A stretch of DNA of 64,000 nucleotides from Clavaria fumosa. Lineage: Eukaryota > Basidiomycota > Agaricomycetes > Agaricales > Clavariaceae. Of this stretch, positions 11,546 to 31,986 are shown in pieces (position 1 is the first letter of the stretch; every line of letters starts with the position of its first letter). The stretch spans positions 1,488,001-1,552,000 of the forward strand of contig OX637806.1 in assembly GCA_951802425.1 (NCBI GenBank). The letters are read 5' to 3'. The notes beneath the pieces are model-generated. The model did not search any database and had not been told where the DNA came from. It saw only the letters and a list, made by a program, of their open reading frames with translations. Made by a program: the position numbers and the translations under genes.

Positions 11546-12661
11546 GGACTCCTCAAGCCCTTGCCCATAGGCAAGCGACCTTGGTCTTCGATCTCAATGG
11601 ACTATATCGAAGCCCTCCCCCTCTCTGCGATCTTTGACTCAATCCTCGTCATTGTCTGCTGACTTACAAAACAAGCGATTTTCATCTCTACCAATACTAC
11701 CAACACCGTGAAAGAATTAGCCCAGCATTTTGTCACCCACGTCTTCTTGAAACATGGGTTACCTGCGGACATAGTGTCAGACAGAGGAAGATTATTTGTT
11801 TCCAAGTTTTGGTCTTTGTTATGTCAAGCTTTGGACATTACTTCAAATCTTTCCACAGCTTACCACCTGGAGACCGATGGACAAACAGAGCGAGTCAACC
11901 AGGTCCTGGAACAATATATACGAATCTATACGAACTACCAACAGGATGACTGGACTTACCAACTCCTGCTCGCTGAGTTCGTATACAACAACACCCCCCA
12001 CAGCACTACCGGTGTCTCCCCATTCTTCGCGAATAAGGGATACAACCCCCGAATTACGATTTCTCTTGAGGACATACCCGCACATGAAGCCCACATGGTT
12101 GTGACCGATCTCAAGATGCTCCATCAGCATCTACGAGATCAACTCAAGGTCATGAACGAAGCGTACTTGCGCTTCACAGACAGGAAGAGAGAGATGATGC
12201 CGGATTGGAAGGAAGGGACAAAGGTGTGGTTAGATTTGCGAAACGTGAAGATGAAAAGGCTGATGAAGAAGCTAGATTCTAAACAAGCTGGACCTTTCCC
12301 TATACTTGCGAAAGTCTTGACTCATGCCTATCGCCTCCAGCTTCCAAAATCAATGCAAGGAATTCACGACATTTTCCACGTCGTGTTACTTGAGAAGGTC
12401 TATGACAACGCCTTCCCCCAACGACAACAACAACCCCTGCCCCCTATCAAGATCGACGGCAAACAACACTACGAAGTCGCCAACATACTAGATTCTCGAA
12501 GGAGGGGTAGGAAAGTGCTTTACCTTGTATGTTGGGAAGGTTACGGACCCGAGGACAACACCTGGGAACCCATAGAATCACTTTTCAGATCGAAGGAACT
12601 CCTCCAGGACTTCCACACGACTTACCCAGAAAAACCTCGCGCAACTCGCGCAACTCAATGA
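11546..12661 (+). pseudogene. pol: Element 1 pol, second part: integrase core and chromodomain
   Basis: Continues the interrupted integrase from the RHKPYGLL block. DDE core visible: D in SMDYIEAL, D in IVSDRG, E in TDGQTERVNQ, then a GPFPI..V..HAYRL..P DNA-binding region and a chromodomain (YEVANILDSRRR to YLVCWEGYGPEDNTWEP). Chromodomain integrases (chromoviruses) direct insertion towards modified chromatin. One TGA (11660-11662) sits exactly at the family Arg of the D-R-L-T-K motif. The ORF from 11708 to 12661 is otherwise unbroken and ends with TGA just before the antisense gene. Confidence 0.93.
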
Positions 12662-12788: not shown

Positions 12789-14845
12789 TCACGATCCTTC
12801 TGCCACTTCCCCACCTTCCACACTTGCAACTTTTTCCTCCTCTCCCCCCTTCTCCTCCTCTCCAGCCTCGGGACTTTTCAATTCCACACCCCATTGGTCC
12901 ACCCTCGGGAGATCTAACAACTCCCTCCGCACGCGACGCTGCTCCTGCTCTGCCCATTTCTCCACCCATGGCGGGAGCTCCTTTGGCGACTTCAACAAAA
13001 GGTCTTCATAGGCGAAGAAGACTGTTTCCAGCCCTCTTCGCCCTCAAAATCGAGCCTCGCTGACCATCGTCGTGCACCTACTGCGCAATTCTAGAAACGA
13101 ACTGTCAGCTCATCATCAAGAATATGAAATTCGCGACTACTTACCTTGTTCTTGCTCCCTCGATGCCGACAACTCCCTTCCCATCCTTTCTACAGTTGTG
13201 AACAATCCTACAAAACATGGATTAGTCTATTTTATACTCACGACTGTGGAACTTACTATGCTCCGACTCTTCAGCCTCTGCCAGCCTACACCAGACTTCT
13301 TCCAGTTCAACCTTTTGATCTAAATGAACAGGAAAGTCAGTTGGAACCTCACGAGGCAAGATTGCAACTTACCGGCACCTTCCTTCTTCGCCATTGCCAT
13401 GATCCCCTTCACCTCATCAAATTTGTCACGGGTTTTTTCCAGTATCCCCGACCATTCTGTGGGTGAAATTAGCTCACTTCATACTCGCGAAATTTGGACT
13501 TACCCTCCCTCTCCTTCTTCATCTCCCTCAACTTGTGATGCGCCTCTCTCAACTTGGCCTCTTGGTCTGAATGAAGAGAGAAATTAGTTTGTAACGTGGT
13601 AAAAACCAAACAATTACTTACCTTCCCACTCCCCATGGAGTGCCTCGAACTCCCTCTCTGCTCCCTCAGCCCGTGCCGTCAACTCCGTGACTGTTGTATC
13701 CACAATTTTGGATGTGGGCACCTTCGACGAGGTCCCCCACGCCCCCTCTACTTCTTTGCCTTTCCCTACAGACTCGCAAGTTCAGTAAAATTGCAGAATA
13801 TGAAAGAATTTCGGAACTCACCCTTCGCGCTCCTCCGCGCCTCCTCCAATTCGCGCCTCATTGCTGCCAACTCCACCTCTAATTCCATCTCCCTTGTGGA
13901 CTTTGACACCCACACTGTCTTCTGTATGGGCTCCGCGACTTGCTGTCGGAGCATCGCGAGCTCCCACTCCAAGTCGCCTCTTGGGACCAAAGTCCCCGTG
14001 ACCTTTTCTCTCTCCTCCACCAATCCCCTTGACGACGGCGGTTTTGCCACTCGCCTTTTTGTAGATGGACCGGGCGTCGGTGACCGCGACCTCGTTCTCG
14101 CCCGTTTTCCACGTGTTGCCCTTGTCGGAGTCCCTGGAATAGGCAGGGTGACGTACCCTGCTCCCACTCGACTTGCGACTTTAGGCGTCGCCACCCCCAC
14201 CGTCTCCAATCCCTCTGCACGCTTCAGCGCCTTGTCGACACGCACGTCGTCCCACCCGAACTCGTTCTTCACCTGCCATCGTCGAAACTCTTGGACCCAC
14301 AAACATTTGTTGTGGTCCTCTGCACACTGACGACACTTGCCGGCAGCGCTGCGCTCACACTGCCGGCTCTTTGCGACGCAGTTGTCGCAATCCTGTGACT
14401 TAGCAGTTAGAAGAAACGAATGGGAAGCAGGATTACTGCTACGCACCTCCCGTTCCATCCCATTCCACTCCTTGTTTTCCTTTGCTGATCCTATTTTCTT
14501 CCACACCTTCAGGAATTCTGCAGGCGATGGATCAGCTATCCCCGCGACATCGCCCGCGACTTCACTGGGCCCCGCAAGATCCCCCACAGTCGGGCTCGGG
14601 CCCGTGATGTCACCCGCCGCCTTGCTCGTGTCCACGACATTGCTTTGCGCCTTCTTATGACCTGCGGCTTTGGCTTGAAGAAGTGCACATCACGCCTGTT
14701 CAGCCTTTTGACGGGCCAGTGCATCCTCCAGGATCCCCAGGTTGATACCGGGTTCCGTTTCATCGAAAAAGCGCATTTCACATGCAACTTCATTGTCATC
14801 ATTGTTGGTTTCGGTTTCGTGTTGTTTGATGAAAGCAGAGACCAT
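12789..14845 (-). pseudogene. Antisense gene 1 in element 1: Zn2Cys6 coiled-coil protein
   Basis: Opposite to gag-pol, between integrase and the 3' LTR. It starts at an ATG in a CCACCATGG context (14845), 117 bp from the LTR. Exons on the minus strand can be chained by GT..AG introns of about 45-60 nt: 14845-13822, 13765-13622, then five shorter exons ending 12789. The product has an acidic N-terminus, a Cys pattern C-x2-C-x6-C-x7-C-x2-C-x6-C (CDNC ... CRQC ... C, around 14310-14400) as in fungal Zn2Cys6 regulators, a basic RGKRARTRSRS stretch, then a long coiled coil (RRELEEARRS; LREAHHKLREMKKERE; WVEKWAEQEQRRVRREL). Two TGA codons (14690-14692, 13044-13046) interrupt it and look like mutated CGA. 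Function unknown; nuclear role inferred from the motif. Confidence 0.72.
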
Positions 14846-14945
14846 GGTGGTTGGACTTAGAAAAAATTTTTGGGTGTCATGACCTGATCAACAAACATCA
14901 TGCTGACTAATTGTCATGTGATCTCCACTCTTGCAGGGCTCGAGG

Positions 14946-14961
14946 CTTGAAGGGGGGGTAA
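14946..14961 (+). promoter_or_regulatory. Polypurine tract of element 1
   Basis: Purine run GAAGGGGGGG just upstream of the LTR start TGTCAAGACC at 14962; the expected primer site for plus-strand DNA synthesis. Confidence 0.75.
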
Positions 14962-16279
14962 TGTCAAGACCCATTCATTTTTCCCCTACCCAAACCAACT
15001 CTACCAGCATCTACGAGCCTCCCGACGACCTTCTTCAACTTCACGAGCCCTTATACACACCTCCGGAACCTGCTATCCCCTTCCGAAAACCTCTCCAACC
15101 TCCCCAGCGCTCACACAACACTCGTGACCACCATACCATATACGCAACGCCTCCTACTACTTCACCCCATGCGCACACCCCGTCCAGACCCACCAATTCC
15201 ACACGTGACATGCTGTTGTGCATCTTCTTCCGCCAGCACATGACTTGCTGCGTGGCACCCCCGGCGCTACCGCTACCAGCGCCAATACGTTACCAGCGTT
15301 ATGGCTGTTACTCGCGTTACCAGCATTACCCACGTGACTTCCCACCCATAGGTCACCTACGTCACTAGCGTCACCCACGTGATCGCTCTTATGACCTCAC
15401 AAGCTTAACACTCAAACGCGCCACCAACGGTCAGCTGTATGTACACTTCAAATTATGCTTCCCTTCTTCTCCCCAATCGTCTATAACTACTTCACTTATG
15501 ATCCGAGAATCCCTCAGTAGTTATAGATACATATATATTTATTTAACTAGGATGCAACCCGTGACAGGTCATCTTTGTGACCTTACCTATGCATTCCCAA
15601 CCCCTTGTGGCCTTAGTAGAACATGCGCACAGTCACTCCCTGACTAGTTATACCCCATACTACTATATTCTCGTCGCCTGGCAACCTCTGTACATTCCCT
15701 TTTCTGTTATACTCTCCATATGCATGTATATAAGTCTAGCATGTACTTCTCGTACAGTAGACTTGATATTAACTTAAGCTTGAGGCCTTGATGCCCTTTG
15801 AGCTTGGAACCATTGTGATTGATAGGTCTTGTCTCACTTGGTGACCTCGACAACACCAAGACCACTTTGCAGGTTCTCCCATCAGTTGGCAAAGTCATCG
15901 CCTTCACTGACACACTCTTAAACACTGTTGCAACTACCCGCGACTCTTCCAACATCATCTCTTTCCTTCACCTCGTCTTTTTCTCTCTCACGCTTCGTCG
16001 GTCAACTTCGCAACCTTCTCAGCATCACCTGTTTCTCCCACTTTGTTTATTCTTTTCTTCACGCTTCGTCAGTCAACCTCGCGACCTTCTCAGCAACATC
16101 TCTTGTCTCCTCACTCATCCCTTTCCATCCTACACCTTGTCTGCCAACTTTGCGACCTTCCTAGCAATGTCTCCTGTCTTGCTACTTGTCTGTTTCCATT
16201 CTTACATCTTCCCAGATGTCTCCATGATCTTCCGGGACCGAGCATTTTGACTGTGCTCAACAGTTGATTGGTATTAGCT
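14962..16279 (+). repeat. 3' LTR of element 1, truncated at its 3' end
   Basis: Starts TGTCAAGACCCATTC. A homologous LTR in reverse at 26706-28022 (1317 bp, exact TSD) defines the family. Similarity runs to GATTGGTATTAGC at about 16279 and then stops; the last about 70 bp of the family LTR, ending CTAACA, are missing. Between about 15960 and 16200 the LTR holds three to four imperfect ~70-bp repeats with the core GTCAACYTCGCRACCTTC. Confidence 0.85.
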
Positions 16280-18201
16280 TGTTTAAATTCACCATCGAAA
16301 TGGATGCCAAATTTCTTAAGGGTATGCTAAACAACCTGGACATTCAACCAAACGCTGCCATGAATCAATGGATTGCCAGTATACTACTTTTCGATTTCGA
16401 CCTTGTTCACATCCCCACAGATAAACACACCGGAGCCAACGGATTATCTCGCCGATGTGCCGCGGATGGTGAGGAAGACACCGAGTCCGAAGATCATGAA
16501 GAGTGGATTGATCGGAGCTACGTGTTCGCCATGGAACACATGAATTGAACACTGGAATCTCCCTACCGATCCAAGGCGCAGCTCCCTGGTATCGCTCATA
16601 CTGGCTTCCAACTTCACACAGGATCGATGCTACTCAATTTGATGGTATCATCTGATGATTCACCAGCCCCGAATAAATCCTCCACCATCTTTATACCCCA
16701 GTCAGACGCAGCAAAGAAAAGAGAAGAACAGATCCGCAAAATTGAATCTTTCCTTCGAAACCTGATCCATCCACCCGGCATTGACGCAAACCAGTTCCGA
16801 CGATTAGTCTGCTCCGCATCCGAGTTCTTCATCCTTGATGACAAGCTATGGCGTCGCCAACCTAATGGATGCCACAAGGTAGTACCTCTGGACCACAAGC
16901 AGCTTGCAATTATTACAGAGGCACACAATTCACTTGGCCACAAAGGTGTTTACATTATCCGGATGCATATCTTAAATTGGTTCTGGTGGCCGGTGTTGGA
17001 TCAAGATGTAAAATGGTTTGTCCGAACTTGTCACCAATGCCAGACTTGACAAATCCAGAAGATTTTTATTCCACCGATGGTCGCCACCCTGGCCGGTCTT
17101 TTCCGTCGAGCGCACATTGACACCATGTTCCTACCCAGAGCCTGCGGTTTTCGACTTCTTGTCCACGCCTGATGTTCATTATCCGTGTATCCAGAAGCAA
17201 GACCGCTACGGAATGAGACTGCCTGACTTATCAGAACCTTTATATTCGAAGATATACTGTGCTGATGGGGAGCAGTAGAAGAGATCATTATGGATAACGG
17301 CACCCCATTTATCAAGGCCCTCGATTTCCTCAAGAAACGGTATGGAATCTGTCACATCTGTATCTCTGGATATAATTCCTGCGCTAACAGCGTCATCGAA
17401 CATGCCCACCGGTTGGTCCGCGAGTTGTTAATCAAAGCAGCAGACAGAGATGAATCAAAATGGCCAGACGTTTTACCCTCAGTCATTTGGGTGGAACGAG
17501 CCACAATCCAACAATCCACCGGTCACTCTCCATTTTACATCGCACACAGCATTGAACCGCTTTTCCCTTTCAACATATCCGAAGCAACATATCTAATTCC
17601 GACCACCAACACCCTGACAACTACTATGGAACTGATAGCCCTTCGAGCCCACCAACTACAAAAACGAGAAGAAGACCTAGCGTCCATTGCCAACAAAGTA
17701 CTCACTGCCCGAAAACAATCTGTCAAGCAGTTCATCGACACATATCGGAACTCTATCATTGACTACGATTTCAAACCCGGATCGCTGGTATTGATCCGAA
17801 ACTCGGCCGTAGAAATGGAATTAAACCGGAAGACAAAACCGCGATTCTTCGGACTGATGATCATTGTTCGCCGAACTCAATACGGTGCATATATTCTCTC
17901 AGAACTCGACAGCGCTGTCTCAAAGATCCACTATGCAGCTTTCTGCATCATTCCCTACTATCTGCGATCGCAAACATCGATTCCGGTCACATCTATCATC
18001 GACCAAATGACGGAGATAAATGAGGACATCTCACGCTATCAAATACATGAGGCCTCACATAACTCCATCGATACCGGAGATAGGGAAAGCCAAGCTGCCA
18101 AACTATCTGATGAATCCGACAATAAAGCCGCCGATACCAACGCTCCGGAAACTCGTCCGCAATGCTCCGGAGCAGCCCGAAAACTTCGGCCTCGCCATTA
18201 G
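16280..18201 (+). pseudogene. pol: Element 2 pol remnant: RNase H end and integrase
   Basis: RNase H tail (EMDAKFLKGMLNN, WIASILLFDFDLVHIP, GANGLSRR), integrase zinc domain (HNSLGHKGVY to CHQCQT), core with D in HIDTM, D in IMDNGTPF and E in NSVIEHAHR, then a C-terminal domain (FKPGSLVLIRNS ... KTKPRFFG). No chromodomain is visible. A TGA at 17047-17049 replaces a family Arg after CQT, and there are further stops between 17160 and 17280. The 303-aa stretch 17290-18201 is open. Family resemblance is to the gypsy group with EVDAKYIKGM-type RNase H common in mushrooms. Confidence 0.88.
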
Positions 18202-18416
18202 GCATTTTCCCCAACATCTCCCTTATTTTTCTCATTGTTTTCTTTGGCCAGAACGGCAAAAAAGAAAAAAAGAAAAGAAATTTCGGACAAGTCCAAACTT
18301 TATACCCGATGTTCCATTTTACCTTTATATCTCCCTTTCACATTCCTCACTCACTTTTCTTACACATAATAGTACCATATTGAAAAAGAAGAAAAACACA
18401 GATAAAAACAAAACAT
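18202..18416 (+). other. Spacer between integrase and antisense gene 2
   Basis: AT-rich, non-coding as far as I can see; serves as the 3' flank of both the plus-strand integrase and the minus-strand gene. Confidence 0.5.
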
Positions 18417-20156
18417 TTATATCGTTAAGGGCTCACCAAGGAGAAGCATCTGGAGCAGCTCGGCTCCGGCCTTCACCTGATTAGCCCCCCTTTCCATCAT
18501 CTCCAGCGCCCGCTCCAGCGCCTTCCGTCCGGACACCCCTGGCTCCGTCTCCCACTCCTTTCCCTTTCGGCTGGGACCCGCCTCTGCCTTCTTCCGCTTT
18601 GCCGGCGGCTCCACCACCTCCACGCTCTCCTCATCCTTGATCTCGTCCTCCTCCTCCTCCGGTGTCGTCTCCTCGCGAACCGGTGCCTGCGTCGCACCTT
18701 GCCTTGGCCTCTTGTTGCTGCTCGCCTCCATCGCCTTCGGACCTGCTCCGCTACATTAGCCGACATGGATCCGGTACTCTCTTGACCTACCTCCGGTTCC
18801 GGACACTGCCGCCTTCTCAGTCTTCACTCCTGAAATGTACCAATCAGTTGGCTCATCACTGAAATAAAAAGAATACTACTCACCTCGTACAGCCGAGAGA
18901 CTACATGACACCTTGTAGGTCTGGCACCACCGGCACGCCACTCCTTCCACTCCGTAACACGAGTGCCGTTTCCGGGCGCACGCTTCGCAGGCCGGCTCAT
19001 GCTCCTACTCACCAGATCAGAAGCCTAAGAATCAAAAAGCCCATTTAATGACTTACCTTGTCCCCAGGCTGTCGTGCAGCCCGGAGCTCGATGTCGGCCC
19101 CCACTCCGACCCTCCGCCCTCGCCCTCGTCCCTCCGTTGCCCGTTTTCCAATATCGCCCCATCCCGACATATGATGAGGCATCGCAGTCATCCGCGCACC
19201 GACCCGATGTTCCAGAACAGAGGGCACCTCGACCACTACACGGCGCCCCCCGATCCTCGCACTGGTCGCCCCCACCTTGATGACACCGATGGCCGTTACC
19301 CCGTCGGTTCCCCATAGGGTCCGGTCACCCTCTTGATTGTCCTCTGCGGCCCCCGCCTTGTTCACAGCACCCGTCATTGGATCTGTTTCCTCGCCCACGC
19401 CCGGCTCCAAGACGACTGCCGGATCTGACATGGTCGTGGTCACCGCTGCATCGGCGACCGGCATAGCTGCTGCTGTTGCTGTTGTTGCCTCTGCCGCTGC
19501 CACCCGCACCTCTCCTGTCTCCACCTCCGCAGTCGCCACCTCGTCCGCATGCAGCTCTGCGACGTCCGGCGATATCGTTGTTGTTGCCGCTGCTGCTGCT
19601 GCGGGCTCCTCCGCTCCTGTCGTTGCTGTTGCTGCTACTGTTGCCCCGCTGTCGTCCTCGCTGTCACTAATCACGATGAGGCGCGCCCGGGCAAGGCGCG
19701 CCCTCTTCTCGGCAGCCCTCGCCACCTCCGTCCGCCTCTCCTCCGCCTCCGCCTCTGCTGTGGCCCGCTCGATGGCCGCCCTCTCCTCGTCCGCACGTTC
19801 CTGTTCAGCTTCAGCCTCCTCCTGTTTCCTCGCCTGCTTGGCAGTCCACTCGTCCCCGCGGAGTTTTCGCCATTTCTTGAGCCTTCGCGCAACAAGGACA
19901 AGTCCCTCGTCCACTTCCACGTCATTGTCAATTGCCGCAACATAGCCGGCAAGAAAATCATCCTAAAACCTGTCAGTGCGATGTGAAAAGGAAACAAAGA
20001 AACATCACGTACCGCATCACCCCCGTACATCTGCACCCATTCCGCATATTCACTGTCCTGCCCCCGCTCCGGCAACGCTTCACCCGGTGCCATGGCCCGT
20101 GCCTCCATCATCGCCTGGGCCGTGTTCCGGAAAACAAGAGTATCGAAGTTTTCCAT
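18417..20156 (-). CDS. Antisense gene 2 in element 2: Zn2Cys6 coiled-coil protein, intact
   Basis: Five exons on the minus strand (20156-20013, 19962-19057, 18995-18884, 18829-18791, 18745-18417) join with GT..AG introns into 1530 nt with no premature stop: 509 aa. Layout: N-terminal helical part; a Glu/Ala/Arg-rich coiled coil (about residues 75-140); a long Ala/Thr/Val low-complexity region; at about residues 352-380 the pattern C-x2-C-x6-C-x7-C-x2-C-x6-C (PACEACARKR ... CRWCQTYKVSCS) that matches the fungal Zn2Cys6 cluster; then a Glu-rich acidic stretch, a basic PPAKRKK (nuclear-signal-like) and a C-terminal amphipathic helix. The start is 162 bp inside the 3' LTR. The carrier pol is dead but this frame is open. 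Function not known. Some acceptors (CATGAG, GCGGAG) were chosen to keep frame. Confidence 0.72.
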
Positions 20157-20317
20157 CTTTTTTTGGATGGCTGATGTGTTGTTGTTATTGGAGAAAGCAC
20201 AAATGCGTGTTTGAACCTATGTGCACCCACACAACACGTACTTTATGATCAACAAACGGTTATTTGGCCCTGTTTGGCCGCAACCAAGGGCGGTTGCATT
20301 TTCAGCCCCCGGGAGAA

Positions 20318-21162
20318 TGTAAGGATGATATGCGGTTTAGACAAGGAAACATCACAGATACTGACTATCCGGATATTTAGGCATCAAAGGCAACAGTGAC
20401 CGATAATGATCCGATACTGTCCGATAACGTCCGGGATGTCCGATAAACATCCGATATTGGACTCTCCGGTCTCCAGTCTGCCGTGATGATCACAGCCCAC
20501 AGGTCATACACACCACCCACACCTCTCTATTTCATCACTCCAACATGGTCAGCGCTCGACATACTCACTATTTCATTCCCCCTTCCTTTATTTCACATAC
20601 CATGCTGTAAATTTCATATTGTGATCCCTTTCAACCATCCGATCATTTAAACATTTCAACCCTTTGCAGTGCTTTGCCCATTGTTCCTAGTACCCCTTTG
20701 CTGTACCAGCCACACTTTCCTTCATTTTATGAGTGGTCCAGACATATGCTAGTTATCAGACATTTCATCCCTCCGAACTGCATGACTCACTTATGAATTA
20801 TGGCCCTTATATGACCCTGTACACAATACCGCATTGCCTTCTGTAGCTTCCGGAGATTTCTGTAGGATCAGATTTGCTGTACTTGGAAAAATTGTACATA
20901 AGTATGTACTGGACTCTATGGAAATCCAGCTTTCTGGATGCCCATATTGCACTGGGATCTTTAGCAGGCTCACCCTTCGTCGTACCCATTGATCTGCTAG
21001 CCTTCATCATCACCGGCCCCTCAAACCTTTGATCTGAACATCGGACTCCACCGGATCCAATACTGGATACTTCAGATAACGTATATTTTCATTCATTGAA
21101 CATTTTATACTCAGTCTCTACTTCCTCCAAGGTTCTGTCTAGTGTCTACATCGTGTAACAAG
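20318..21162 (+). repeat. 3' LTR of element 2
   Basis: Follows a CCCCCGGGAGAA purine tract and starts TGTAAGGATG. The 3' limit is set at GTGTAACA (21162) because the minus-strand RT of element 3 appears just beyond; no second copy is in the window to confirm the end. Confidence 0.6.
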
Positions 21163-21229
21163 ACCCCCTGAAGAACCAGGCTGTGAACACTTGTTTGCAG
21201 CCAACACCAGTACAGCCTACTACACCGGT

Positions 21230-22910
21230 CATTGGGGCGATGATGTTGGAGTATCCATGGACAAATGGTGATGGAATTTGGCGAACCCGAGGAAGGACTG
21301 TATGTCTTTGACCTTCCGCAGAGTGGGCCAATCCTGTATAGCTTTAACTTTAGCTGTATCCATAGAAAGTCTGGCCAGAGATAAAACAAATCTGAGATAC
21401 TCCACGGTTTCAGCATGAAATTCACACTTAGCTGGGTTCAGAAAGAGACTGTTCTTCCAGAGCCTTCGGAGTACCTCTCAGACATGTTCAACGTGTTGCT
21501 TTGGGTCCTTGGAGTAAATGAGGATGTCATCGAGATAGATGACCATGAATGTGTTGAGGAGGTCAGAGAATATATTGTTCATGAAGTGCTGGAAAGTGGC
21601 AGGCGCATTGGTGAGCCCAAAAAGCATCACACACCATTCAAAGGATCTGTATCAGGTGCGGAATGCGGTCTTCCATTCATCACCCTCAGCGATACGGACC
21701 AGGTGATACGCATGTCAGAGGTCGAGTTTTGTATAGATTCAGGCTTTCCCTGGAACATCGAGAAGATCTTTAGTCAGTGGAAGCAGATAACAGTCTTTTT
21801 GGTCAATTTATTGAGACCATGGAAATCAACGCATAGTCAGAGCATTCCATTCTTCTTCCAGACAAAGAGCACAGGTGCTCCATGTGGAGAATGGCTTGGA
21901 CAGATAAATCCGATGCAGAGGTGCTCATCCAGAAACTCGCAGAGTTCACTGAGTTCGGACTGCAACAGAGAATAGACCGCACCTGATGGAGGGGATTGGC
22001 CATCCAGCAGGTTGATTTTTAGATCATATGGTCAATGCAGAGCAAGGGCATCTGCCTTCTTTTTACTGAAGACATCTGGAAAGTCCCTGTACTCCTCCGG
22101 AACTGAGAGGAGATCCTGGGGGGTGGTGTCGGGAACATTGAACGAAGCGGAGGCTGTGTGCACGGACTCGCTCGACAATGTCATGCCAAAGACTTGGGAC
22201 CCACGAAGTCCACAAGCTGTGACGAATGCAGCAGCATTCACAAAAGAAACCTTGGGTGTCTCCTGGAGAGATGGAGTAGACGGAAAGGTCAGAGACGTAG
22301 TCAAAGATGGAGACGGAAGCAGAGATGGAGACAGAGTCACTGCAGATGACGTTTGAACTGGAGCGCACGGAGCAGAGACAGACAGAGGGACAGAGGTGAA
22401 CAGAGGGACAGAATGGAGAGTGCTGGCTGGTGCACCCTCCGGATCAGATTTCGGAGTTTTTTTCTCATTAGTAGATGGTCTGGGCTTTATCTGACCAGTA
22501 GTCCAGTCAACCAGTGGGTTGTTTTGGAACAGCCAATTCATTCCCAAGATCACATCACTAGAGGGATCAAGATTGGTAACTACACACAAGACGTTGGTCG
22601 GATCCATGGCAGAGAGCTGAATGGATAACCAGACCACTTTGGTAACCCATATGGAGGTGGTCCCATTAATAAAAACAACCTCCCGAGGGGTCACTGGAGT
22701 TTTCAGGAGACAGAAACGAGAAGCAAATTTGGCATCAATGAAACAAAGTTCAGTGCCAGAGTCTATCATTGCTTTGAACAGAGAAGAAATAGAAGGAGAG
22801 GAGGCAAGAAGAGAAAGAGAACAATGAAAGGAAAGGGTATTGAGTATAGGTTTAGTATGATCAGAGTTGGAGCAGCCAGAGAGTCGTACTGTGCTCTCTG
22901 GGCTGCTCAA
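21230..22910 (-). pseudogene. pol: Element 3 protease and reverse transcriptase
   Basis: Protease: AMIDSGTELCFID and VILGMNWL. RT opens at YRDFPDVFSKK and shows GAPVLFV, LRLCVDFHGLN, NGVWCFLGSP-like remnants in shifted frames, [11 protein letters not shown] (about 21525-21490 on the minus strand) and DIQSFLGFAKF. TGA stops at 22034-22032 (family HRPYD) and 21480-21478 (family VREVL) both replace Arg. At least two frameshifts. Not functional. Confidence 0.88.
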
Positions 22911-24079
22911 TCTTTTTTTGGCACAGAGTCATCTCTGTCAGAGGTGATTCGTGCAGCGCTGGCACTGGCCCGCGAGGTCCGCTTATGACACTCGTTGGCT
23001 TTGTGGCCTGCTATTCCACAGAAGAGGCACAAATTATTATTGAAACACCATTGGCATTCCTCCAGAGTCAGTTTCCCATCCTGACCCAGATGAGCCTTCT
23101 TAGTATCACTGGAGCAACCGGAGTCAGTGGAGCCCTCAGTGGCCTTTGGAATGGAGTTCCTGGAAGTTGAACTGGAGTTCACCGGACACTTTTCCAATGG
23201 TTTCTCAGACTTGGTATTAGTGCCAGAAGTGTTGGGGGACTTGGAATTATCTGAAGTCTCCTTTTTACTGGTGTTGTTAGGCATCAGAGCTTTAACGGAG
23301 TCCCAAGAGATCTCCTGCTGCCGAGCCCAATAATGGCCATCGATCGCACTGGCTTGCTCGCAGAGTCTGCGGAGCATGTCCGCGCAGTTAACGCAGGCCA
23401 GTTCGTCCTTGATGCGGCTGGCAAGTCCTTTGTAGAACTGCCGCTGCAATGCATACTTGTCCCAATGGACAATGGACATGAATCTGTTGAACGAAATGGT
23501 GTATTTTGTCAACCTCTGGTCCTCACACATCCGGAGGCATTCAAGTTCGAACTCCACCTCGCAGATCGCATTGTAAGGACCAAAGTTCTCTGTAAGTTGG
23601 GCAATGAACATCTTATAGTTTGAAAGGACCGGATGGCCTTCGCCATCCAGGATCATTGGTTTGAACCATTCCAGGGCGAAGCCCTGGAGAAAGGAAAGGA
23701 CATAGTGTACCTTATGAGAATCGGACTTGAACACTCTTGGGCAATCAAGGAAGTTCAATTGGCATTGGACCAAGAAGCTTTTCGACTTCTTAGCGTATGA
23801 GCCATCGAAGGTATCGGGGTTGCGTGGTTTAACCATGTCCGAGTGCTAGTTGGCGTCAATAATCTTCTGAAGGAGATGCGCTGGAGTTAGTTTGCGCTCG
23901 GCTCGAGGTGTCGGAGGTTCATTTAGTTCATCATTGTCGTCAGTGACCGGGGTCTGACTCTTCATCGTGGTCCGGGGGTCTGGACACACTCGGAGTTGGA
24001 GTATTGTCGGCCGGATCTGGAATGTCAATGTTGTCGGCAACAGGAGGTGGAAGTCGAGCACCGGATCGTGTAGTAGGCA
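22910..24079 (-). pseudogene. gag: Element 3 gag
   Basis: The likely start is the MPTTRSG Met at 24079, 42 bp after the LTR. One frameshift occurs near 23960 and a TAG (about 23850) follows IIDAN. The core frame 23836-22907 holds PDTFDGS, FALEWFKP and the zinc knuckle CLFCGIAGHKANEC near the C-terminus. It precedes and slightly overlaps the protease frame. Confidence 0.88.
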
Positions 24080-24120
24080 TTGTTAAGTTTGTATATACGA
24101 GGTTTGAAGTTTGAATATAT

Positions 24121-24837
24121 TGTCACAGTCCTAACAGGTTGGTAGTGAAGGGGTTAGCAGAGTGGAGATGTTTTATCAGAGTCCAATCAGGGTCTGATAT
24201 CAGAGAAACAGAGAAGTAAGTAGAGAAGGAGGAGACTTATGGGACTGCGGCCTCAATGTATGTGTTGTGCCACCACGTATATATGTGTCCCTATTTATCA
24301 AACAGAAACAATACCCAAGAGAGAATCAGAATGTAAGTCAAAACTCCGAAGTTGATTGGAGTCTGCTGGAGTTGCTCGGAGTTGGTTGGATGACATGGAG
24401 AATGTCGAGGACGATGAGGATGAAAGCTCAGAAATGTTTAGGATCAAGAGATGTTAATATTCCAACTGAGGAGCAGGGAGATACAGGTGGAAACTTATAC
24501 TGCAAAGACAGAGTATAGGAGTATTGTGAAACAATGTACATATCAAATTACTAGGAGAGTTTCACCACAAGTGCCTGTGCAATTTTCATGGAACAAAGAA
24601 ATAACAACAAAAATAACTCCCATGGGTCGAGGGTATCCTCTCAATGGTAAACAGAATGAGGGGATGGAGGGAGAAGGTTCTAGAATGAAGTCTGAATGGT
24701 CCAAAGGCCGGTGGAGTGAAGTCCGATGAAGGTGCAGAGCGGAGCACACGGAGTTATGGCGGAGCGGATCGGAGTTGGTATGGAGCCTGGAGTCCAGAGT
24801 GGGGATCGTGCTTATGCAAGTGGATGGGGTCATAACA
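24121..24837 (-). repeat. 5' LTR of element 3 (717 bp)
   Basis: On the minus strand it starts TGTTATGACC and ends GACTGTGACA. Relatives lie at 26439-28598 (minus, interrupted) and 28599-28978 (plus, 3' half only). All share GGACTGYGGCCT, TTGTGCCACNNC and a GTATAAGTTYCC block. Confidence 0.8.
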
Positions 24838-26438
24838 CAAAAACAGGAAACAAGGAGTGTTGGAGTTGTACAAAAGGCAACATTGTATGGAACAAGATTT
24901 CGGAGTTTTGTAAAGTCAAGAAAAGTGAGGGAATCAAAAGTATCAAAAATATGAAAAAACAGAGTTTTGGAGATTCGGAATTCATGGGGATTGGAGTAAC
25001 AGGAAACATAAGGACATAGGAAGCATAACAATGTAGCAAAGGAACATAATTTTGGAATTTCGGAGTTTTTGGAGCATCAGAGGAGGGCAGAATCTCAGAG
25101 TTTCAGAGATGTGGAGTCTGAGAATGTGAGTGCAGAGTGGTCCGGAGCTGTGTGGAGATGTGGCATGGAGGTCTGGGACCATGTCAGAGGAGTTTGGAGT
25201 AGTTCAGAGTAGCAAGGATTGCATGAGCAACCTTGCTGGACAGATGTGTTCACAAGATAGCAATCCTGAGAACTGGTGATGCAACCACAGTGGGGAGCAT
25301 CCAGAATCGGGTCCAGATTCAGACTTGCTGCAGCAAGGATAGAATTGGAATCCCAGAGTCGGAGTTCCAGAGTAGGTCTGGAGTATGCACTGGCCAAGTG
25401 CCCATCAGAGTCTGTGCCTGGATCGGGCCGGAGTCAGATCAGAGTTTCGGAGTCAGACCCCCACAAGTGAGGGAGTCCTGGAATTGTTAGGCTTGTACAC
25501 TGGACAATCAGCAGATTGTATATGGTACAGCCAGGTGTCCAAAGGACCAAGTCACACAAGGGGTCAAGATCAGAGTTCAGAGGGCCATGTTGAGACAAGA
25601 CAGTGGGCCATGAAGCAAGATGAAGTGTCCGGAGTTTGGAGTTCCGGATTTTGGAGGTCCAGAGTTTGACAGTCCGGAGTTCAGAGGTCTGGGGTTTGGA
25701 ACTTCCAAGCTTGGCATTTGGCATTTCCTGTCTTGGAGTTTCACAACATGGTAATCCATGAAGGAAACGAGCACAAGGAAAGCTCAAAAAGGAGCAATAT
25801 TGGAGTTCTGGAGTTTGGAAGTTCGGAGTTTTGGGGGTCTGGAGCTCAGAGTTTGGCATTTCCTGTCTTGGAGTTTCACAACATGGTAATCCATGCAGGA
25901 AACGAGCACAAGGAAAGCACAAACAAGAGCCAGAGACTGGATATCCAGCATTCCCCATCTCGGAGTGACCAGAGACGGAGTCTGGATATCCAGAGTTCGG
26001 AGTTTCCCATCTCAGAGCCTCACAACATGGGATATGAAGGAGGCGAGCCAGGGAGAACCCAGGAACAGGGGGCCAGAGTTCAGAAGTCCAGCATTCAGTG
26101 TTTTCCTGCCTCAATTCTCCCAACATGAAGGAGAAGAGCTAAGGAGCACTATGAATTATTGGCTGGAGTTTGGAAAATGTCCTAGTTGTATCACCGTGGA
26201 CAGACCCCTTGTGGCAAATCCAGGTCTGGAGCAAATGCACACAAAGTGCACTCGAATGGACCGGAGTTTTGGAGCGGAGTTTCGGATTGGAGGTGCGGAT
26301 TGGAGGTGCGGATTGGAGGTGTGGATTGGAGGTGCAGATCGGATCTTTGGCTTTTGCAGCAAGGAGCAAGGCAAGCAGCAGCACAAAGGGCAAGCAAAGG
26401 ACCAGTTGTATACACAAGGTTGTTAGTTTGAATATACT
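24838..26438. repeat. GGAGT-rich repeat region without recognisable gene
   Basis: Many short motifs of the GGAGTTTGGAG / TCCGGAGT type. It includes a tandem duplication of about 135 bp (units near 25725 and 25860 sharing TGGAGTTTCACAACATGG, with a weaker third copy near 26010) and a run of GGATTGGAGGTGC units (26284-26330). ORFs over it are low-complexity and judged spurious. At 26400-26438 the sequence resembles the 5' leader next to the LTR of element 3. Confidence 0.6.
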
Positions 26439-28598
26439 GTTAAGATCTGATTCTTTGCTCCAAAGAGGGGTGTAGGGTAGTGTAGAGGAGACCAAAAAAG
26501 GTGGCAAAGGTGAAGCCAGAGCAGAGCGGAGTCCGGTCGGAGTCCGGATCGGAGTTGTGTGAGGACTTCTCCTCTACACAAAAGCTAGAAAGAGCTAGAA
26601 AGGGGTCAAAGGGTTGGGACTGTGGCCTTAACTTATGGGTTGTGCCACTGCATGTATACGTGTCCCAATTCAACCTTGCTGGTACTTCACTTTCCAAGAC
26701 AAGGATGTTAGGGCCTGTCCTGTCTCATAAGTAATACCGAAGGTCAACTTGTTGGTGACCAGTTCTAGAAACTCGCTAAGACCAATCAACTATTGAACAC
26801 AGTCGATAATGCTCCATCCCGGAAGGTCGCGAGGATGTCTAAGAGGATGTTAGAATGAAGAGAAACAAGTAGAGAGGAGGGAGACGTCGCTGAGAAGGTC
26901 GCGAAGTCAGTAGACGAAGTATAAAGAGGGAAAAAGACAAGTTGAGAGAAATAGATAATGTTGAGAGGGTCGCGGGTGGTCATGACAATGTCGAAAAGTG
27001 TATCGGTGAATGCAATGACTTTGTCAACCGACGAGAGAACCTGTGGGGTTTGAAGGAATCAGTATCAAGATGAATAAGAGAGAATACTTAAGCGCGCAAG
27101 TTTATACGAGTGCAGAGGACAAGTTAGAATAGAGTAAAAGTGTCTTGATGATCTTGAAGTCACCAAGAGAGACAAGACCTATCAATTGCGATGGTTCCAA
27201 GCTCAAAGGGTGTCATGGCCTCAAGCTTAAACCAAAGTGTGTCAACATCAAGTCTGGAGTACCGTAAGTACATGCAAGGCTTTATATATGTACGTACAGA
27301 GAGTATAATGGAAAAGGAAAAGTACAGAGGTTGCCAAGTGACAGAACTATAGTAGTACGGGGTATGGTCAGTCATAAAGTGACTATGGACATGTTCTACT
27401 AAGGTCATGAGGGGTAAGGGAAACATAAGTAAGGTCACGAACCTGACCAGTCATGGGTCACAACTTAGTTAAATAATCATATGGGTAACTATAGTTACGA
27501 AGAGATGCTTTGATCATAATTATCATAGTTATAGATGACTGGGGAGAAGAAAGAAAGCATAATTTGAAGTAGTGCTCAACTGGCCATTGGTGATGTGTTT
27601 CATCGTTAAGGTCACGAGGTCCATGCATGTGGCCATGTGGATGGTGGTAGTGATGCAAGTGATGCTTGGGCGGGAAGTCACATGGATAATGCTGGTAATG
27701 CGGGTAATGCTAGTGGTGTTGGTGGTGCCGCATGGCAAGTCACGTGCTGGCTGAGGAAGATTGCATAACTGCATGTCGCGCCTCGATTTGGCAGGTTCGG
27801 GTGGTAGACACACGTAGGGTAAGGTGGCGGGAGGTGACACGAGTATAGTATGATAGTCGCGAGTGTCATGTGAATGTGGGAGAGGTCGGGGAGGCTTCCA
27901 GGAGGGGATGGCGGGTTCCGGAAGTGTGTAGAGGAGCTCGTGAGGTTGTAGAGGGATGTTGGGAGGCTCGTAGGTGCTGGTAAAGTCAGTTTGGGCAAGG
28001 GAAAAATGAATGGGTCATGACAAAGGAAGGATGAAGTCCGAAGGGAAATCACCTGGAGTCCGTCGGAGTCTGCTGGAGTTTTGTGGAACTTGTCAGGACT
28101 GTCAAGAACAGTGAGGATGAAGTCCCTTAACGCATGGACCAAGGTGGCAAGGACCAGAAATAACGTTAATATTCGAACTGAGGATCATGGAGATACATGG
28201 GGGCTTATATGTTACTAGGGTAGGGCATAGGGCAGACTGTGAAACATGAATATATCAAATGTACATGGTAATTTCACCTGAGGAGTGGGAAGGCATAGGT
28301 GATACATGTAAGACAAAGAATAAGTTCCCATGGGGAGTGGGCATCGTCCCATAGGTTGCTAACCATGGACTAGTGCCAAGGAACATGCTAGAAACAAAGT
28401 CCATTTGGTCCGAAGGACAAATATTGAAGTCTGACAAAAGTCCGGACTGGAGCTTCGGAGTTGGAGCCAGAGTGGAGATGGAGTGGAGCGGAGTTCGGGC
28501 GGAACTGTGTCGGAGATGCCGGAGATGCTTCGGAGGTGCTTCGGAGGTGTTTCGGAGGTGTTTCGGAGGTGATTAGGTGACTGGATAGGGCCGTGACA
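26439..28598 (-). repeat. LTR copy B of the element 3 family, interrupted by a solo LTR
   Basis: Two parts, 26439-26705 and 28023-28598, align in order with the element 3 LTR; between them sits a solo LTR with its target duplication. On the minus strand the copy starts TGTCACGGCC. Total family length here is about 840 bp. Confidence 0.75.
26706..28022 (-). mobile_element. Solo LTR of the element 1 family
   Basis: 1317 bp, minus orientation, from TGTCATGACC (28022) to CTAACA (26706), flanked by exact 5-bp AAGGA duplications (26701-26705 and 28023-28027). Homologous along its length to 14962-16279. A solo LTR arises by recombination between the two LTRs of a full element. Confidence 0.88.
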
Positions 28599-28978
28599 CC
28601 TTGCAGTATAAGTTCCCACCTGTATCTCCCTGCTCCTCAGTTCGAATATTAATGTCTCTTGATCCTAAACATCTCTGAGCTTTTGTCCTCATTGTCCTCG
28701 ATGTTCTCCACATCATCCGACCAACTCCGACCAACTCTGGTGGACTCTGATCAACTTTGGAGTTTGACTTACATTCTGATTCTCTCTTGGGTATTGTTTC
28801 TGTTTGATAAATAGGGACATGTATATATGTGGTGGCACAACACATACATTGAGGCTGCAGTCCCATAAGTCTCCTCCTTCTTGTTTACTTCTCCATTTCT
28901 CTGATATCGGACTCCGATCAGACTCCAATAGAACATCTCTGCTAACCCCTTCACTACTAACCTGTTAGGACCTTGACA
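28599..28978 (+). repeat. LTR copy C of the element 3 family, 3' half
   Basis: Plus orientation, ends GGACCTTGACA at 28978, and starts in mid-LTR at the point where copy B abuts. Copies B and C therefore stand head to head, consistent with B (or its parent element) having inserted into C. Confidence 0.75.
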
Positions 28979-30336
28979 GCATACCTACAAGGAACTCCCT
29001 GGCAATTGTTCGAAACTCTTGGTCTTTCAGGCCTCAAAGGATCTGATATCCCAATGTAGGTATTCACTGACTACAAGAAACCCAGACGTGCAGGAATCAC
29101 TCGGTCTCTGACTTGTGTCGAGTCCAGTGACCGGAGTCCCTTTTCCAACCCTTTCCTGCCCCCAACCTGGTACTCCGATCCTGCTCTGGAATCCAACACC
29201 AAAATCCGAAACTCCGATTCGATGGCACCTCTACCCTAAGAGGGGGAGAGTGGCTATGCCATTCTAGGCCTTGAAGCAATTCCCGACTTACACCTGTGGC
29301 AAAACCACTCGAAATCCTCCTCTGGGCATCATACCTCTCAAACTCCAGAACCCAACCCAAAACCTGAACACTTGCATGAGCAAAATCTGACCACTAGACA
29401 CGAACCTGCGAATCACTCGTAGGCCCCGCACAAGCAAAATCTGACCATCCGGACCTTATCCCGGACCCCTCCAACTGGACACCCAGACTTAAACTCCAAA
29501 TGTCCTACCATCTGACAAAGTCCTATAGTCTCGACATGACTGCCCGAAAGCTGGTCAACTTGGACTTACCCAGAAATCTGACCCACCGGGATTATGCATG
29601 GCCCAGCCATCTGCAAAGTTCCGCAATTCCTGTGTGAACTGCTGAGATCAAGTCCTCCGGCTTAAGCCTACAGACTCCTCTGCAACATCCGACTCCAGAG
29701 AAATCACAGAAATCAATCCCCATATATATTTCACTGAACCATCCGAACCCGGTTGCAAACCAGGGATTGTTATCCCAATGTGCAACACAGCCACCCAAGG
29801 AGTTGACTAAATTTTTGTCACACAAGTCCTTACGGACATGGGATTCTGACACACATAATATCTGACCCAAATCCGAAATCTGTCCTGCCACTGGAATTTG
29901 TGAATCAGCAATACCCTGAGCCCTGGAATTTCCCCGATTTCAGGGAATAAGAAATTCCACCTGAACCCATCTGAACCTGTTTCCGGCGCTGCTTCCTGAC
30001 CAATTGTCAAGCTGCCGAAACACATATCTGACCCCCGAAATCTGAACCCGGACATTCATCCACCTGACCCCCGGAGCAACCTAGCGAAGCAATGCTATGA
30101 CCTCCAAAGTGCCATCTACTACTCCTATGTCTGACTTTACCTGTCTCCAGTTACAGTTCACAGAAACCCGAACTCCAAATCCCGGAATCTGACCCCCTGA
30201 AATCCCTCAACTTGCAGGTTTTGAAGTCCAACTCCTGCAAAGGAACTGGTCGCAGATTTTACTCTGCATATCCGACACCACTTGGAACTCACCTGGAACT
30301 TACTCCGATCTCTGTCATTTCCGTGCACAACTTAAT
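28979..30336. other. No gene recognised
   Basis: Moderately GC-rich DNA with many CCGAAATCTGACC-like short repeats; it may be the body or leader of element 4. Minus-strand ORFs of 60-100 aa (for example 29592-29891) show no family features. Confidence 0.4.
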
Positions 30337-30394
30337 TCACACAAGTCCGAACACAAAAGCAAGTACATTAAGAAAAACAAAGGAAACTATGTAC

Positions 30395-31779
30395 CTACGC
30401 AGGCAACTTGTCGTTGCCCGCAGTTGCTTTCCCCGCCGGACCCGGCCCCGGCCCCGATCCCTTCCCCGCATCCGCATCCGCATCCGCTGCCTTTGCGGGT
30501 CCCGGACCTGCGCCCACCTTCTTTTCCGCACCCGCACCCGCACCCGCACCCGCACCCGCACCCGCACCCGCACCCGCACCCGCACCCGCACCCGCACCCG
30601 CACCCGCACCCGCACCCGCACCCGCACCCGCACCCGCACCCGCACCCGCACCCGCACCCGCACCCGCACCCACACCCGCACCCGCACCCGCTCCCTTATC
30701 TGATCCTTTCCCCGCACCCATGTCCGTCTTCCTCCCGACTCCTGGACCCGCTTTCTCCTCCGCTCTCGTCTCCGGCTCCGCATCCGGCATCTCCGTGTCC
30801 TCCTCCAACTCCGGGACTTCGAACCCAACTTCACGAGACTCTCACGGATGTTGCCTTCAACATCGAACGAGATTTGCTCGACAATCTGGGCCCACCTCTT
30901 CGTTGTCGCCTCCCAGTTTAGGGCCCGGTACAGGGCCTGACCATCGGCCACTGCCACTTCCCTCATAACATTTTCCCCTGTCTCCTTGACAGTGGCTCGG
31001 AGAGCCCGCAACTCCCACACGAGCCACTGCACCGCCTGCAGGAACGTAGTCCCCGCAGCAATGTCCCCCGGCATTGGCCCCAGGTTCTGCTCCGACCCCA
31101 CCGCCCGTTGCTTTTTCCGCACAGGCGCCTCCGGCTCCGTCTCCACTGCTTCATCCGACTCCGGACTTGTGGCTCGCTTCCCCGCTTTCTTCCCCCGTTC
31201 TGGCTCTCCCAGCCAGTTGCACACTATGTGCTTTTCACGACATTTGTCGCAGCTCTTGACCCGACTGGGTCTGGTACACTTACACAGCTGCCAGAAATCG
31301 TTAGCCTGGTCCCCAAAATCCCGCACTCCGAATTCCTGAAACCCGGAAATCCGACTTACCAAGCCCTTCTTTGTGCACCGCAGGCACGCCTCGTCTGTGG
31401 CCCGCTGGGCTGCCTCAACGTTTTCTGCCCGTTTCTGGGCCTCCCGCTGCATTGCCACCACCTCCGCAGCAGTCCCTCCGACCTTCTTGACTGTCGGCCT
31501 CGCAGCCACAATCTCCTCCCATCGGGCCCAAGCCCGCTCCCCTGATTCCGCTTCCTTCTGCTCCCGCTCCTCCGCTTTCCATCTCGCTCGTTCCGCTTCC
31601 TCCGCCTCCCTCCGCACTCGCTCCTCCGCCTCCCTCCGAACCCGCTCCACTTCCTCCGCCTCCCGCCTTTTCTGCTCCTCTGCCTCTTTTGCCCTCCGCA
31701 TCCGCTCTGCCTCCAATGCCGCCATCTCCGCCTGCAACTTTTCAAATTTTATTTCCAAGTCATTTCCATCATCTGCCAT
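30395..31779 (-). pseudogene. Antisense gene 3 in element 4: Zn2Cys6 coiled-coil protein with Gly-Ala tail
   Basis: Start ATG at 31779, 208 bp inside the LTR. Exon 1 (31779-31360) encodes a charged coiled coil rich in RREAEE repeats and ends CLRCTKKGL; a GT..AG intron (31359-31288) joins it to LCKCTRPSRVKSCDKCREKH, giving C-x2-C-x6-C-x10-C-x2-C-x6-C, again the Zn2Cys6 spacing. A basic stretch follows (RKKQR), then a helical part (WELRALRATVKE). Near 30825 the frame must shift by one base to continue into the acidic EEDTEMPDAE and the Gly-Ala repeat coded by a hexanucleotide array; this could be a frameshift or an unseen intron. The C-terminus after 30395 is not resolved. Same position and layout as antisense genes 1 and 2. 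Confidence 0.65.
30527..30690. repeat. Hexanucleotide microsatellite (CACCCG)n
   Basis: About 27 units with one interruption (CACCCA near 30667). On the minus strand, in the likely frame, it encodes alternating Gly-Ala; other frames give Arg-Val, Pro-His, Pro-Ala or Arg-Thr. Confidence 0.95.
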
Positions 31780-31986
31780 GCCTGATGGTGGTTCAGGTCT
31801 AAGGAGAAAAACAGGACTTAGGGCATGAGCTCAGACTTATATATCCAGGCTCAGAAATTCAAACTCCACCCGAAATTCCCGATCCGATACTCCGCAGAAT
31901 ACTCTGATCCCATCACAACCCAATCTTCTCCAATCTCCTGGCTCCGATCTAAAGGTCTCAAGGGTTCAACCTTAAAGGGGAGGCAC

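Follow-up and report, generated by a model that had tools for sequence, protein, structure and literature searches.

The antisense genes of three LTR-retrotransposon families in Clavaria fumosa are real, integral accessory genes. The preliminary description of the window (the whole stretch of 64,000 nucleotides that was analysed) had proposed that the elements carry an antisense gene with introns, and this is supported by the splice sites and by dN/dS, which points to purifying selection. In the genome to which the window belongs (48.8 Mb, 17 contigs) the genes recur at 60, 81 and 50 match places for families 1, 2 and 4, fragments included. Splice sites, dN/dS and cysteines were compared over 25 copies of family 1, 26 of family 2 and 8 of family 4, and their conservation is beyond chance. 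The genes have a defined structure and location, are linked to pol in families 1 and 2, evolve under purifying selection and have kept their cysteines and splice sites. The best reading, and a rather probable one, is that in all three families the product is a self-expressed DNA-binding regulator resembling HBZ.

Position and structure of the antisense genes

Element 1 is a Ty3/Gypsy chromovirus, having an LTR pair and an integrase with a C-terminal chromodomain; the match to the integrase core is weak (rve, E 0.014). Its 5' LTR is located beyond the window (G000:C13:1485845-1486763) and is 92% identical to the 3' LTR, and 127 bp separate the end of its pol from the antisense stop codon (12789). 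The family 1 gene has pol upstream at 27 of 30 loci and an LTR downstream at 21 of 30. The pol remnant of element 2 contains an Integrase_H2C2 domain (PF17921, E 8.7e-14 on 16549-17049), and in family 2 pol homologues were found upstream in 27 of 30 copies with an LTR downstream in all 30. The attribution to Gypsy is supported for elements 1 and 2 by their pol domains; for element 4 it is not confirmed, no pol domain being found among the four sense ORFs scanned in the 1.4 kb upstream of the antisense gene. By place, the genes of families 1 and 2 belong to the antisense accessory genes of LTR retrotransposons (aORF-3R), which are located on the opposite strand between pol and the 3' LTR. In family 4, with pol not found, the genes are bracketed by eight LTR pairs; the distance between LTR starts is 4.6-6.9 kb, into which a complete pol would hardly fit. 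The recurrence in many copies of a family and the coding constraint also agree with aORF-3R.

Positions of the features in the three elements, numbered from the first letter of the window
Element	Feature	Position	Strand	Remarks
1	pol 3' end: integrase C-terminus, SH3_Tf2-1, chromodomain	11708..12661	+	Pfam PF24626 E 4.3e-17, PF00385 E 2.2e-13
1	antisense gene, 8 exons	12789..14845	-	splice sites conserved over 25 copies; family dN/dS 0.23
1	exons 1-4	14845-14447, 14392-13822, 13765-13622, 13566-13504	-	
1	exons 5-8	13456-13373, 13319-13257, 13207-13145, 13090-12789	-	
1	zinc-cluster motif CDNCVAKSRQCERSAAGKCRQCAEDHNKC, beginning at second codon of exon 2	14303..14389	-	Cys kept in 23-25/25 copies
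1	12-mer GTTTGTTGATCA upstream of antisense ATG	14885..14896	-	candidate antisense promoter element
1	3' LTR, 909 bp	14962..15870	+	
2	pol remnant: RNase H-like stretch (by eye), Integrase_H2C2, integrase (core by eye)	16228..18201	+	
2	antisense gene, 5 exons	18417..20156	-	family dN/dS 0.32
2	exons	20156-20013, 19962-19057, 19004-18884, 18829-18791, 18742-18420 + stop	-	
2	zinc-cluster exon 3 (EHEPACEACARKRHSCYGVEGVACRWCQTYKVSCSLSAVR)	18884..19004	-	all six Cys in 26/26 copies
2	12-mer GTTTGTTGATCA upstream of antisense ATG	20246..20257	-	
2	3' LTR, 906 bp	20319..21224	+	after gene in 30/30 loci
2	five direct CCGATA repeats in LTR adjoining antisense gene	20400..20456	+	candidate binding sites
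4	internal block without recognised pol	28985..30380	+	similar blocks before antisense gene in other copies
4	antisense gene, 2 exons split by intron	30395..31779	-	family dN/dS 0.35
4	antisense intron, 72 bp, between Cys 2 and Cys 3	31288..31359	-	GT and AG in 8/8 copies
4	TATATAAG box, 56 bp from antisense ATG	31836..31843	-	present in 8/8 family 4 copies
4	3' LTR, first part	31988..32172	+	interrupted by 628-bp LTR sequence from another family

The antisense starts had been placed 117, 162 and 208 bp inside the 3' LTR. The distances are correct, but the starts are found in the internal region adjoining the LTR, with minus-strand start codons at 14845, 20156 and 31779 and 3' LTR starts at 14962, 20319 and 31988. 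In the window's copies, gene 1 is interrupted by in-frame TGA at codons 52 and 478 and gene 4 is shifted in frame near 30840; the spliced frame of gene 2 is open (511 codons, 511 aa).

Splice sites and coding constraint

The claimed antisense introns are real, seven in gene 1, four in gene 2 and one, between the second and third cysteine, in gene 4. GT and AG are each present in 24-25 of 25 copies for the introns of family 1, in 26/26 copies for those of family 2 and in 8/8 copies for the single intron of family 4, the length of which varies between 42 and 73. The splice sites are near-invariant, with 14 of 14 sites kept in at least 24 of 25 copies in family 1 and 8 of 8 sites in all 26 copies in family 2, compared with only 48 of 298 (family 1) and 35 of 164 (family 2) intron-interior dinucleotides that are missing from no more than one copy. 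No clean intron loss was seen in the 25, 26 and 8 copies of families 1, 2 and 4, as is expected if the transposing RNA is the sense strand, and antisense introns can be used as a marker for which strand transposes. One family 1 copy (L009) has a deletion running through intron 1.

The spliced antisense frame gave a median dN/dS of 0.23 in family 1 (299 pairs), 0.32 in family 2 (323 pairs) and 0.35 in family 4 (28 pairs), and the six cysteines are almost invariant (23-25 of 25, 26 of 26 and 8 of 8 copies, respectively). A dN/dS near 1 and cysteine frames closed among family members, both named in the preliminary description as speaking against its reading, are not what the copies display. Shifted antisense frames have a dN/dS of 0.86-1.14, and the other tested frames are near 1 except the wobble-facing frame of the opposite strand (f1), which is also low (0.36 and 0.46). 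Taken by itself the latter could suggest that the antisense ORFs arose by chance or mirror a sense gene, but a true coding frame is expected to produce a low value in the frame that faces its wobble positions, and the sense pol stops before the region (12661 versus 12789). Of the six frames in families 1 and 2, that of the gene combines the smallest dN/dS with the smallest number of stops. As the splice sites are conserved too, an origin of this kind was rejected and its probability is next to nil.

The sense pol, analysed with the same method, gave a dN/dS of 0.12 in family 1 and 0.22 in family 2 (17 copies each). Distances in pol and in the antisense gene are correlated, with a Mantel r of 0.59 (17 copies) and 0.61 (15 copies), values that were reached by 1 and 0 of 999 permutations. 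The analysed copies are mostly broken, and a fully open spliced frame was found in two of the 25 family 1 copies. In the youngest family 1 group the contrast of the gene frame is weak, because its median dN/dS is 0.40 and the other frames have 0.47-0.83.

The selected entity could also be the antisense transcript, exerting control through double-stranded RNA or RNA interference, with the protein being secondary. Such a transcript would form duplexes with the genomic RNA of the sense strand, as discussed in PMC7264820, but the frame-specific constraint (0.23, with shifted frames at about 1), the invariant cysteines and the splice sites are protein-level signals that an RNA does not need, which makes this explanation quite improbable.

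The zinc cluster and its relatives

Zn2Cys6 clusters follow the pattern C-x2-C-x6-C-x(5-12)-C-x2-C-x(6-8)-C, and this cysteine pattern (PF00172) is found in all three families. The spacing reported earlier was confirmed, C-x2-C-x6-C-x7-C-x2-C-x6-C in genes 1 and 2 and with a middle x10 in gene 4. Zn_clus is the best Pfam match for each of the three isolated cysteine segments, including exon 3 of element 2 (18.0 bits, under the cut-off of 21). The full-length proteins do not reach this cut-off (family 2, 12.2 bits; family 4, 17.1 bits; family 1, no match), which only a 69-aa fragment of family 4 exceeds (22.5 bits), and in a genome-wide Zn_clus search none of the three families' own places was over the cut-off (compared by eye). 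The cluster can be described as Zn2Cys6-like by its spacing, membership in Zn_clus not being confirmed at full length. AlphaFold models were poor (mean pLDDT 58 and 51), with short helices near each CxxC at a pLDDT of about 50; Foldseek gave no significant match with these models and no zinc-cluster chain was among the matches of the PDB sequence searches. The antisense proteins also contain basic stretches and predicted helices or coiled coils. They are similar to the GAL4-type fungal Zn2Cys6 factors (PF00172) in cysteine spacing and in the best Pfam match of the isolated segments, but differ from them in that the full-length proteins fall under the Pfam cut-off and, in families 2 and 4, in a charged helical stretch before the cluster.

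One gene shared by the three elements had been suggested. In hhalign comparisons of the cysteine region, homology was found for families 1 and 4 only (P 2.2e-5, probability 76%), and a common origin of all three was not upheld (families 1 and 2, P 0.024; families 2 and 4, P 0.0087). In protein searches, which scored only the best word-sharing candidates (7,994, 7,991 and 2,320), family 1 had one relative, P0001, with 48% identity over 53% of the query and an apparent read-through intron; none was found for families 2 and 4, nor a host-like full-length homologue for any family. The absence of relatives means little, since most of the shared words are probably those of coiled coils and spliced fungal proteins may be scarce in the collection.

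The intron-rich, host-like structure and the other Zn_clus places in the genome would suit a transcription-factor gene that was captured from the host and is carried along as a neutral passenger. There are 46 such places, of which 27 were flagged over the cut-off, some of them transposon-borne. Among five examined loci, L068-L071 are copies of one repeat (L070 partial), with a DDE-transposase-like ORF recognised by eye in L068, L069 and L071; no transposon was recognised at L072. Neutrality is contradicted by the purifying selection across copies, with dN/dS well below 1, and by the co-inheritance with pol, and among the candidates scored in the protein searches no host-like full-length homologue was found beside the single relative P0001. 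The neutral passenger is highly improbable; the gene may nevertheless have been captured long ago.

Proposed function and known systems

For the self-expressed regulator, the gene, which immediately precedes the 3' LTR and in families 1 and 2 faces pol convergently, would give rise to a spliced antisense mRNA starting beside the 3' LTR. Its product would be of a nuclear type, combining a Zn2Cys6-like cluster with basic stretches and coiled coils, and most likely a dimeric factor that binds DNA in the LTRs or the promoter of its own element. In the simplest case this protein would damp or time sense transcription, as HBZ does for HTLV-1. The antisense gene would be copied within the sense genomic RNA, and its introns would persist because antisense introns are not recognised there. 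Transcription, promoter, DNA binding, dimerisation, target and direction of regulation are the parts of this reading that we infer.

Two of the candidate elements for such regulation, the 12-mer and the CCGATA repeats, were chosen after looking at the sequence. The 12-mer common to the upstream regions of genes 1 and 2 occurs twice in the window against 0.03 expected; for gene 4 the TATATAAG box is the candidate promoter element. The five CCGATA direct repeats within 57 bp of LTR 2 form a cluster seen in 0 of 1000 shuffles, but of 64 tiles of the window 5 likewise contain a five-fold cluster of a 6-mer, and when the whole of LTR 2 is counted its 6-mers were not above shuffles.

Zinc clusters with this spacing are usually DNA-binding, which counts against a post-transcriptional role of the same gene, in which the protein would help to bring the pre-integration complex into the nucleus or to its targets without controlling transcription; the antisense placement with separate upstream elements rather fits a gene timed apart from gag-pol. 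The basic stretches and predicted helices of the proteins favour this role, as does the chromodomain that element 1 already has, and nuclear entry of the pre-integration complex is raised for plant antisense ORFs in PMC7264820, but such a helper function is on the whole unlikely.

A more detailed form of the regulator reading is tentative and somewhat doubtful. Several families would have HBZ-like spliced antisense zinc-cluster autoregulators that bind repeats in their own LTRs (for example CCGATA) and set the activity of the element. An antisense promoter motif would be common to families 1 and 2 in spite of their proteins showing no clear homology, and family 4 may be without pol and use the machinery of another family, with the antisense gene as its only conserved protein gene.

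HBZ of HTLV-1 is a spliced antisense gene that starts at the 3' LTR and encodes a factor restraining sense expression. The likeness is one of analogy only, HBZ being the bZIP of a retrovirus and not a zinc cluster. Antisense genes at this place are already known from the plant elements Grande, RIRE2 and Retand and from Botrytis (brtn). The statement that no Zn2Cys6 version with introns had been described stands, in so far as no fungal antisense zinc-cluster retroelement gene was among the literature matches listed, subscription papers being mostly outside the coverage; precedent for the antisense gene itself extends beyond the plant cases to a fungus with brtn. The brtn gene of Boty-like retrotransposons is reportedly the subject of Zhao et al. 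2011, Virology 417:248. Boty-like Gypsy elements of Botrytis cinerea carry brtn in antisense according to the available parts of PMC8365987, PMC4227169, PMC7264820 and PMC5987419. These describe, as here, a fungal LTR element with gag-pol, a chromodomain and an extra antisense gene, but mention neither a zinc cluster nor introns in the parts available, and the likeness is one of description.

According to PMC7264820, an antisense promoter of HTLV is within the 3' LTR, and gene23 of Grande is driven by a separate promoter and encodes a nuclear product. The plant antisense ORFs have an identical place and strand but differ in host and in having other or no known domains, and neither introns nor zinc are mentioned for them in that text. 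Retand elements have a lineage-wide antisense TRP28 domain before the 3' LTR, for which DNA binding and regulation have been proposed (PMC11963269, available part); TRP28 (PF04195) is not Zn2Cys6, and introns and zinc are likewise not mentioned in that part. The same sources give the origin of most plant LTR-element antisense genes and their function as unknown (PMC7264820), as well as the function of TRP28 (PMC11963269). Among the zinc-cluster proteins with coiled coils that are predicted from fungal genomes, some may themselves be encoded by retroelements. Here three families share one motif of a DNA-binding type, are present in many copies, and have introns that are conserved and selection that can be measured, which makes the regulator hypothesis directly testable.

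Position and structure of the antisense genes

The antisense genes of the three LTR-retrotransposon families start beside the 3' LTRs, as the preliminary description had claimed. The window spans positions 1488001-1552000 of contig C13. In the source genome (48.76 Mb, 17 contigs) the genes of families 1, 2 and 4 have matches at at least 60, 81 and 50 places respectively, fragments included. In family 1 the antisense gene is directly preceded by the C-terminus of pol, encoded on the other strand, at 27 of 30 loci, and is followed by LTR similarity at 21 of 30. For family 2 pol, again on the other strand, precedes the gene at 27/30 loci and the LTR follows it at 30/30, about 162 bp from the antisense start codon. 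Diverged LTRs and loci cut short probably account for the loci without a pol or LTR match. Distances between copies in pol and in the antisense gene are correlated (r 0.59 in family 1 and 0.61 in family 2). Eight LTR pairs bracket the family 4 genes, 4.6-6.9 kb from start to start; this spacing, together with a block in which no pol was recognised, may mean that the LTR element of family 4 lacks pol. The antisense gene is not universal among the Gypsy elements of this genome, since a compact Gypsy family, the source of the 628-bp LTR sequence interrupting LTR 4, has its SH3_Tf2-1 domain 234 bp from the LTR at three loci among the matches listed, leaving no room for such a gene.

Positions of features (contig named where outside the window numbering)
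Feature	Position	Remark
Start of antisense gene 1	14845	
Start of antisense gene 2	20156	
Start of antisense gene 4	31779	
Early stop, gene 1	14692-14690	Arg in other copies, e.g. L004
Early stop, gene 1	13046-13044	Arg in other copies, e.g. L004
Block in family 4 element	28985-30380	1.4 kb, no recognised pol
Compact Gypsy locus	C10:1124708	234-bp spacing
Compact Gypsy locus	C8:1181728	234-bp spacing
Compact Gypsy locus	C3:4403466	234-bp spacing
LTR-2 with weak Zn_clus match	C1, C4 (two), C5, C7, C10, C11, C12, C13	
Inverted repeat	24121-24505	~385 bp, 88% identical to next
Inverted repeat	28601-28978	~385 bp
Reversed family-1-like LTR region	26769-28022	flanked by the inverted repeats
Tandem array	10946-11523	34-bp unit
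Tandem array	47451-49934	126-bp unit, overlaps next
TPR protein ORF	46067-48715	

The alignments comprised 25 of the 30 loci fetched for family 1 (excluding L005 and L006, with match figures identical to those of L004, and the partial L028-L030), 26 of 30 for family 2 (excluding L036, L044, L047 and L052), and the window copy with seven fetched copies for family 4. Seven introns are shared in family 1, each with GT and with AG in 24-25 of 25 copies and 41-59 bp long except for a deletion in L009. The four introns of family 2 have GT and AG in 26/26 copies, and the single intron of family 4 (42-73 bp) in 8/8; as proposed earlier, this intron splits the Cys motif, the cut falling between the second and third cysteine. 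No clean intron loss was seen among these 25, 26 and 8 copies, as expected if the sense RNA is the copied template, where the antisense introns read CT...AC and would not be spliced.

Coding constraint

Nei-Gojobori dN/dS across copies, the check proposed in the preliminary description, gave medians well below those of most other frames, over pairs that are not independent and with decayed copies pulling values towards 1. The antisense frame has 0.23 in family 1 (299/300 pairs; remaining frames 0.93, 0.98, 1.01, 0.36 and 1.18) and 0.32 in family 2 (323/325 pairs; remaining frames 1.07, 0.98, 1.14, 0.46 and 1.12). The 0.36 and 0.46 come from the opposite-strand frame in which the wobble base faces that of the gene, and are an expected shadow. 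Family 4 has 0.35 vs 1.14 and 0.86 in the same-strand frames (28 pairs). Differences by codon position in family 1 are 0.156, 0.157 and 0.289, with 0.24 in introns. Sense pol has 0.12 and 0.22 in families 1 and 2 (17 copies each), the antisense gene 0.25 and 0.32 on the shared copies. The contrast is weak in the youngest family 1 group (13 copies; 0.40 vs 0.47-0.83).

The spliced frame is open in 2/25 family 1 copies, L004 (575 aa) and L019 (557 aa). Of the 26 family 2 copies, that of the window is open over 511 aa and L032 as far as a first stop at 509; L054 has its first stop at 501. Many changes in decayed copies appear to replace Arg by Cys, Trp, His, Gln or a stop codon, the pattern that C-to-T decay at CpG sites would produce. 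Four near-identical family 1 genes, L004-L007 (C4, C2, C1, C11), are no more than ~155 kb from a contig end; they are accompanied by a short remnant of pol, and LTR 1 finds no match beside them. Of the two analysed, L004 is open and L007 is interrupted at codon 360 by a stop.

Zinc cluster and upstream signals

The six cysteines are kept in 23-25/25, 26/26 and 8/8 copies of families 1, 2 and 4, and Zn_clus is the best Pfam match of the isolated Cys segments (11.6, 17.7 and 22.5 bits; cut-off 21). Of 13 family 2 exon members, 10 match it with E up to 1. None of the whole proteins reaches the cut-off, and a genome-wide Zn_clus search flagged none of the three families over it (places compared by eye). 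By hhalign family 1 is linked to family 4 in the Cys region (P 2.2e-5), family 2 showing no clear link to either (P 0.024 and 0.0087). AlphaFold models of the proteins have low confidence (mean pLDDT 58 and 51), and Foldseek gave no significant match. At nine places a weak Zn_clus match of 15.9 bits, short of the cut-off, stands 1,498 bp from an LTR-2 copy and on the other strand; those on contigs of known length are no more than ~300 kb from a contig end. A repeat at L068, L069 and L071 (C2, C4, C12; partial copy L070, C6) has a DDE-transposase-like ORF (Tc1/IS630-like, by eye) and a separate same-strand ORF with a clear Zn2Cys6 motif, CARCKGRKVKCEYVDGSEKCQKC, and constitutes a second, unrelated element class with a zinc-cluster protein.

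Three upstream features are leads picked post hoc. The 12-mer GTTTGTTGATCA stands upstream of both gene 1 and gene 2, each time in antisense orientation (2 in the window vs 0.03 expected), and nowhere else in the 64 kb; TATATAAG precedes gene 4 in 8/8 copies; and CCGATA is present five times as direct repeats within 57 bp of LTR 2, the initial 300 bp of this LTR holding 1-5 copies at each of 30 loci, all related.

Relation to known antisense genes

The element carries an added protein gene under selection with conserved splice sites. Its product would be a DNA-binding factor expressed off the opposite strand that, by analogy with HBZ, might hold back or time the sense programme; the main rival is that the protein acts after transcription. 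HBZ of HTLV-1 is an antisense-strand factor that restrains or times the sense programme. DNA binding is proposed for TRP28 of the plant Retand elements (PMC11963269); brtn of Botrytis Boty-like elements is mentioned in PMC8365987, PMC4227169 and PMC5987419. Antisense ORFs of plant LTR elements are discussed in PMC7264820. In the available parts of these papers no antisense gene was seen with a zinc cluster or introns, and among the papers listed by the literature search there was no fungal zinc-cluster case. Antisense genes in retroelements are thus known, and it is the zinc-cluster, intron-bearing form that appears to be new.
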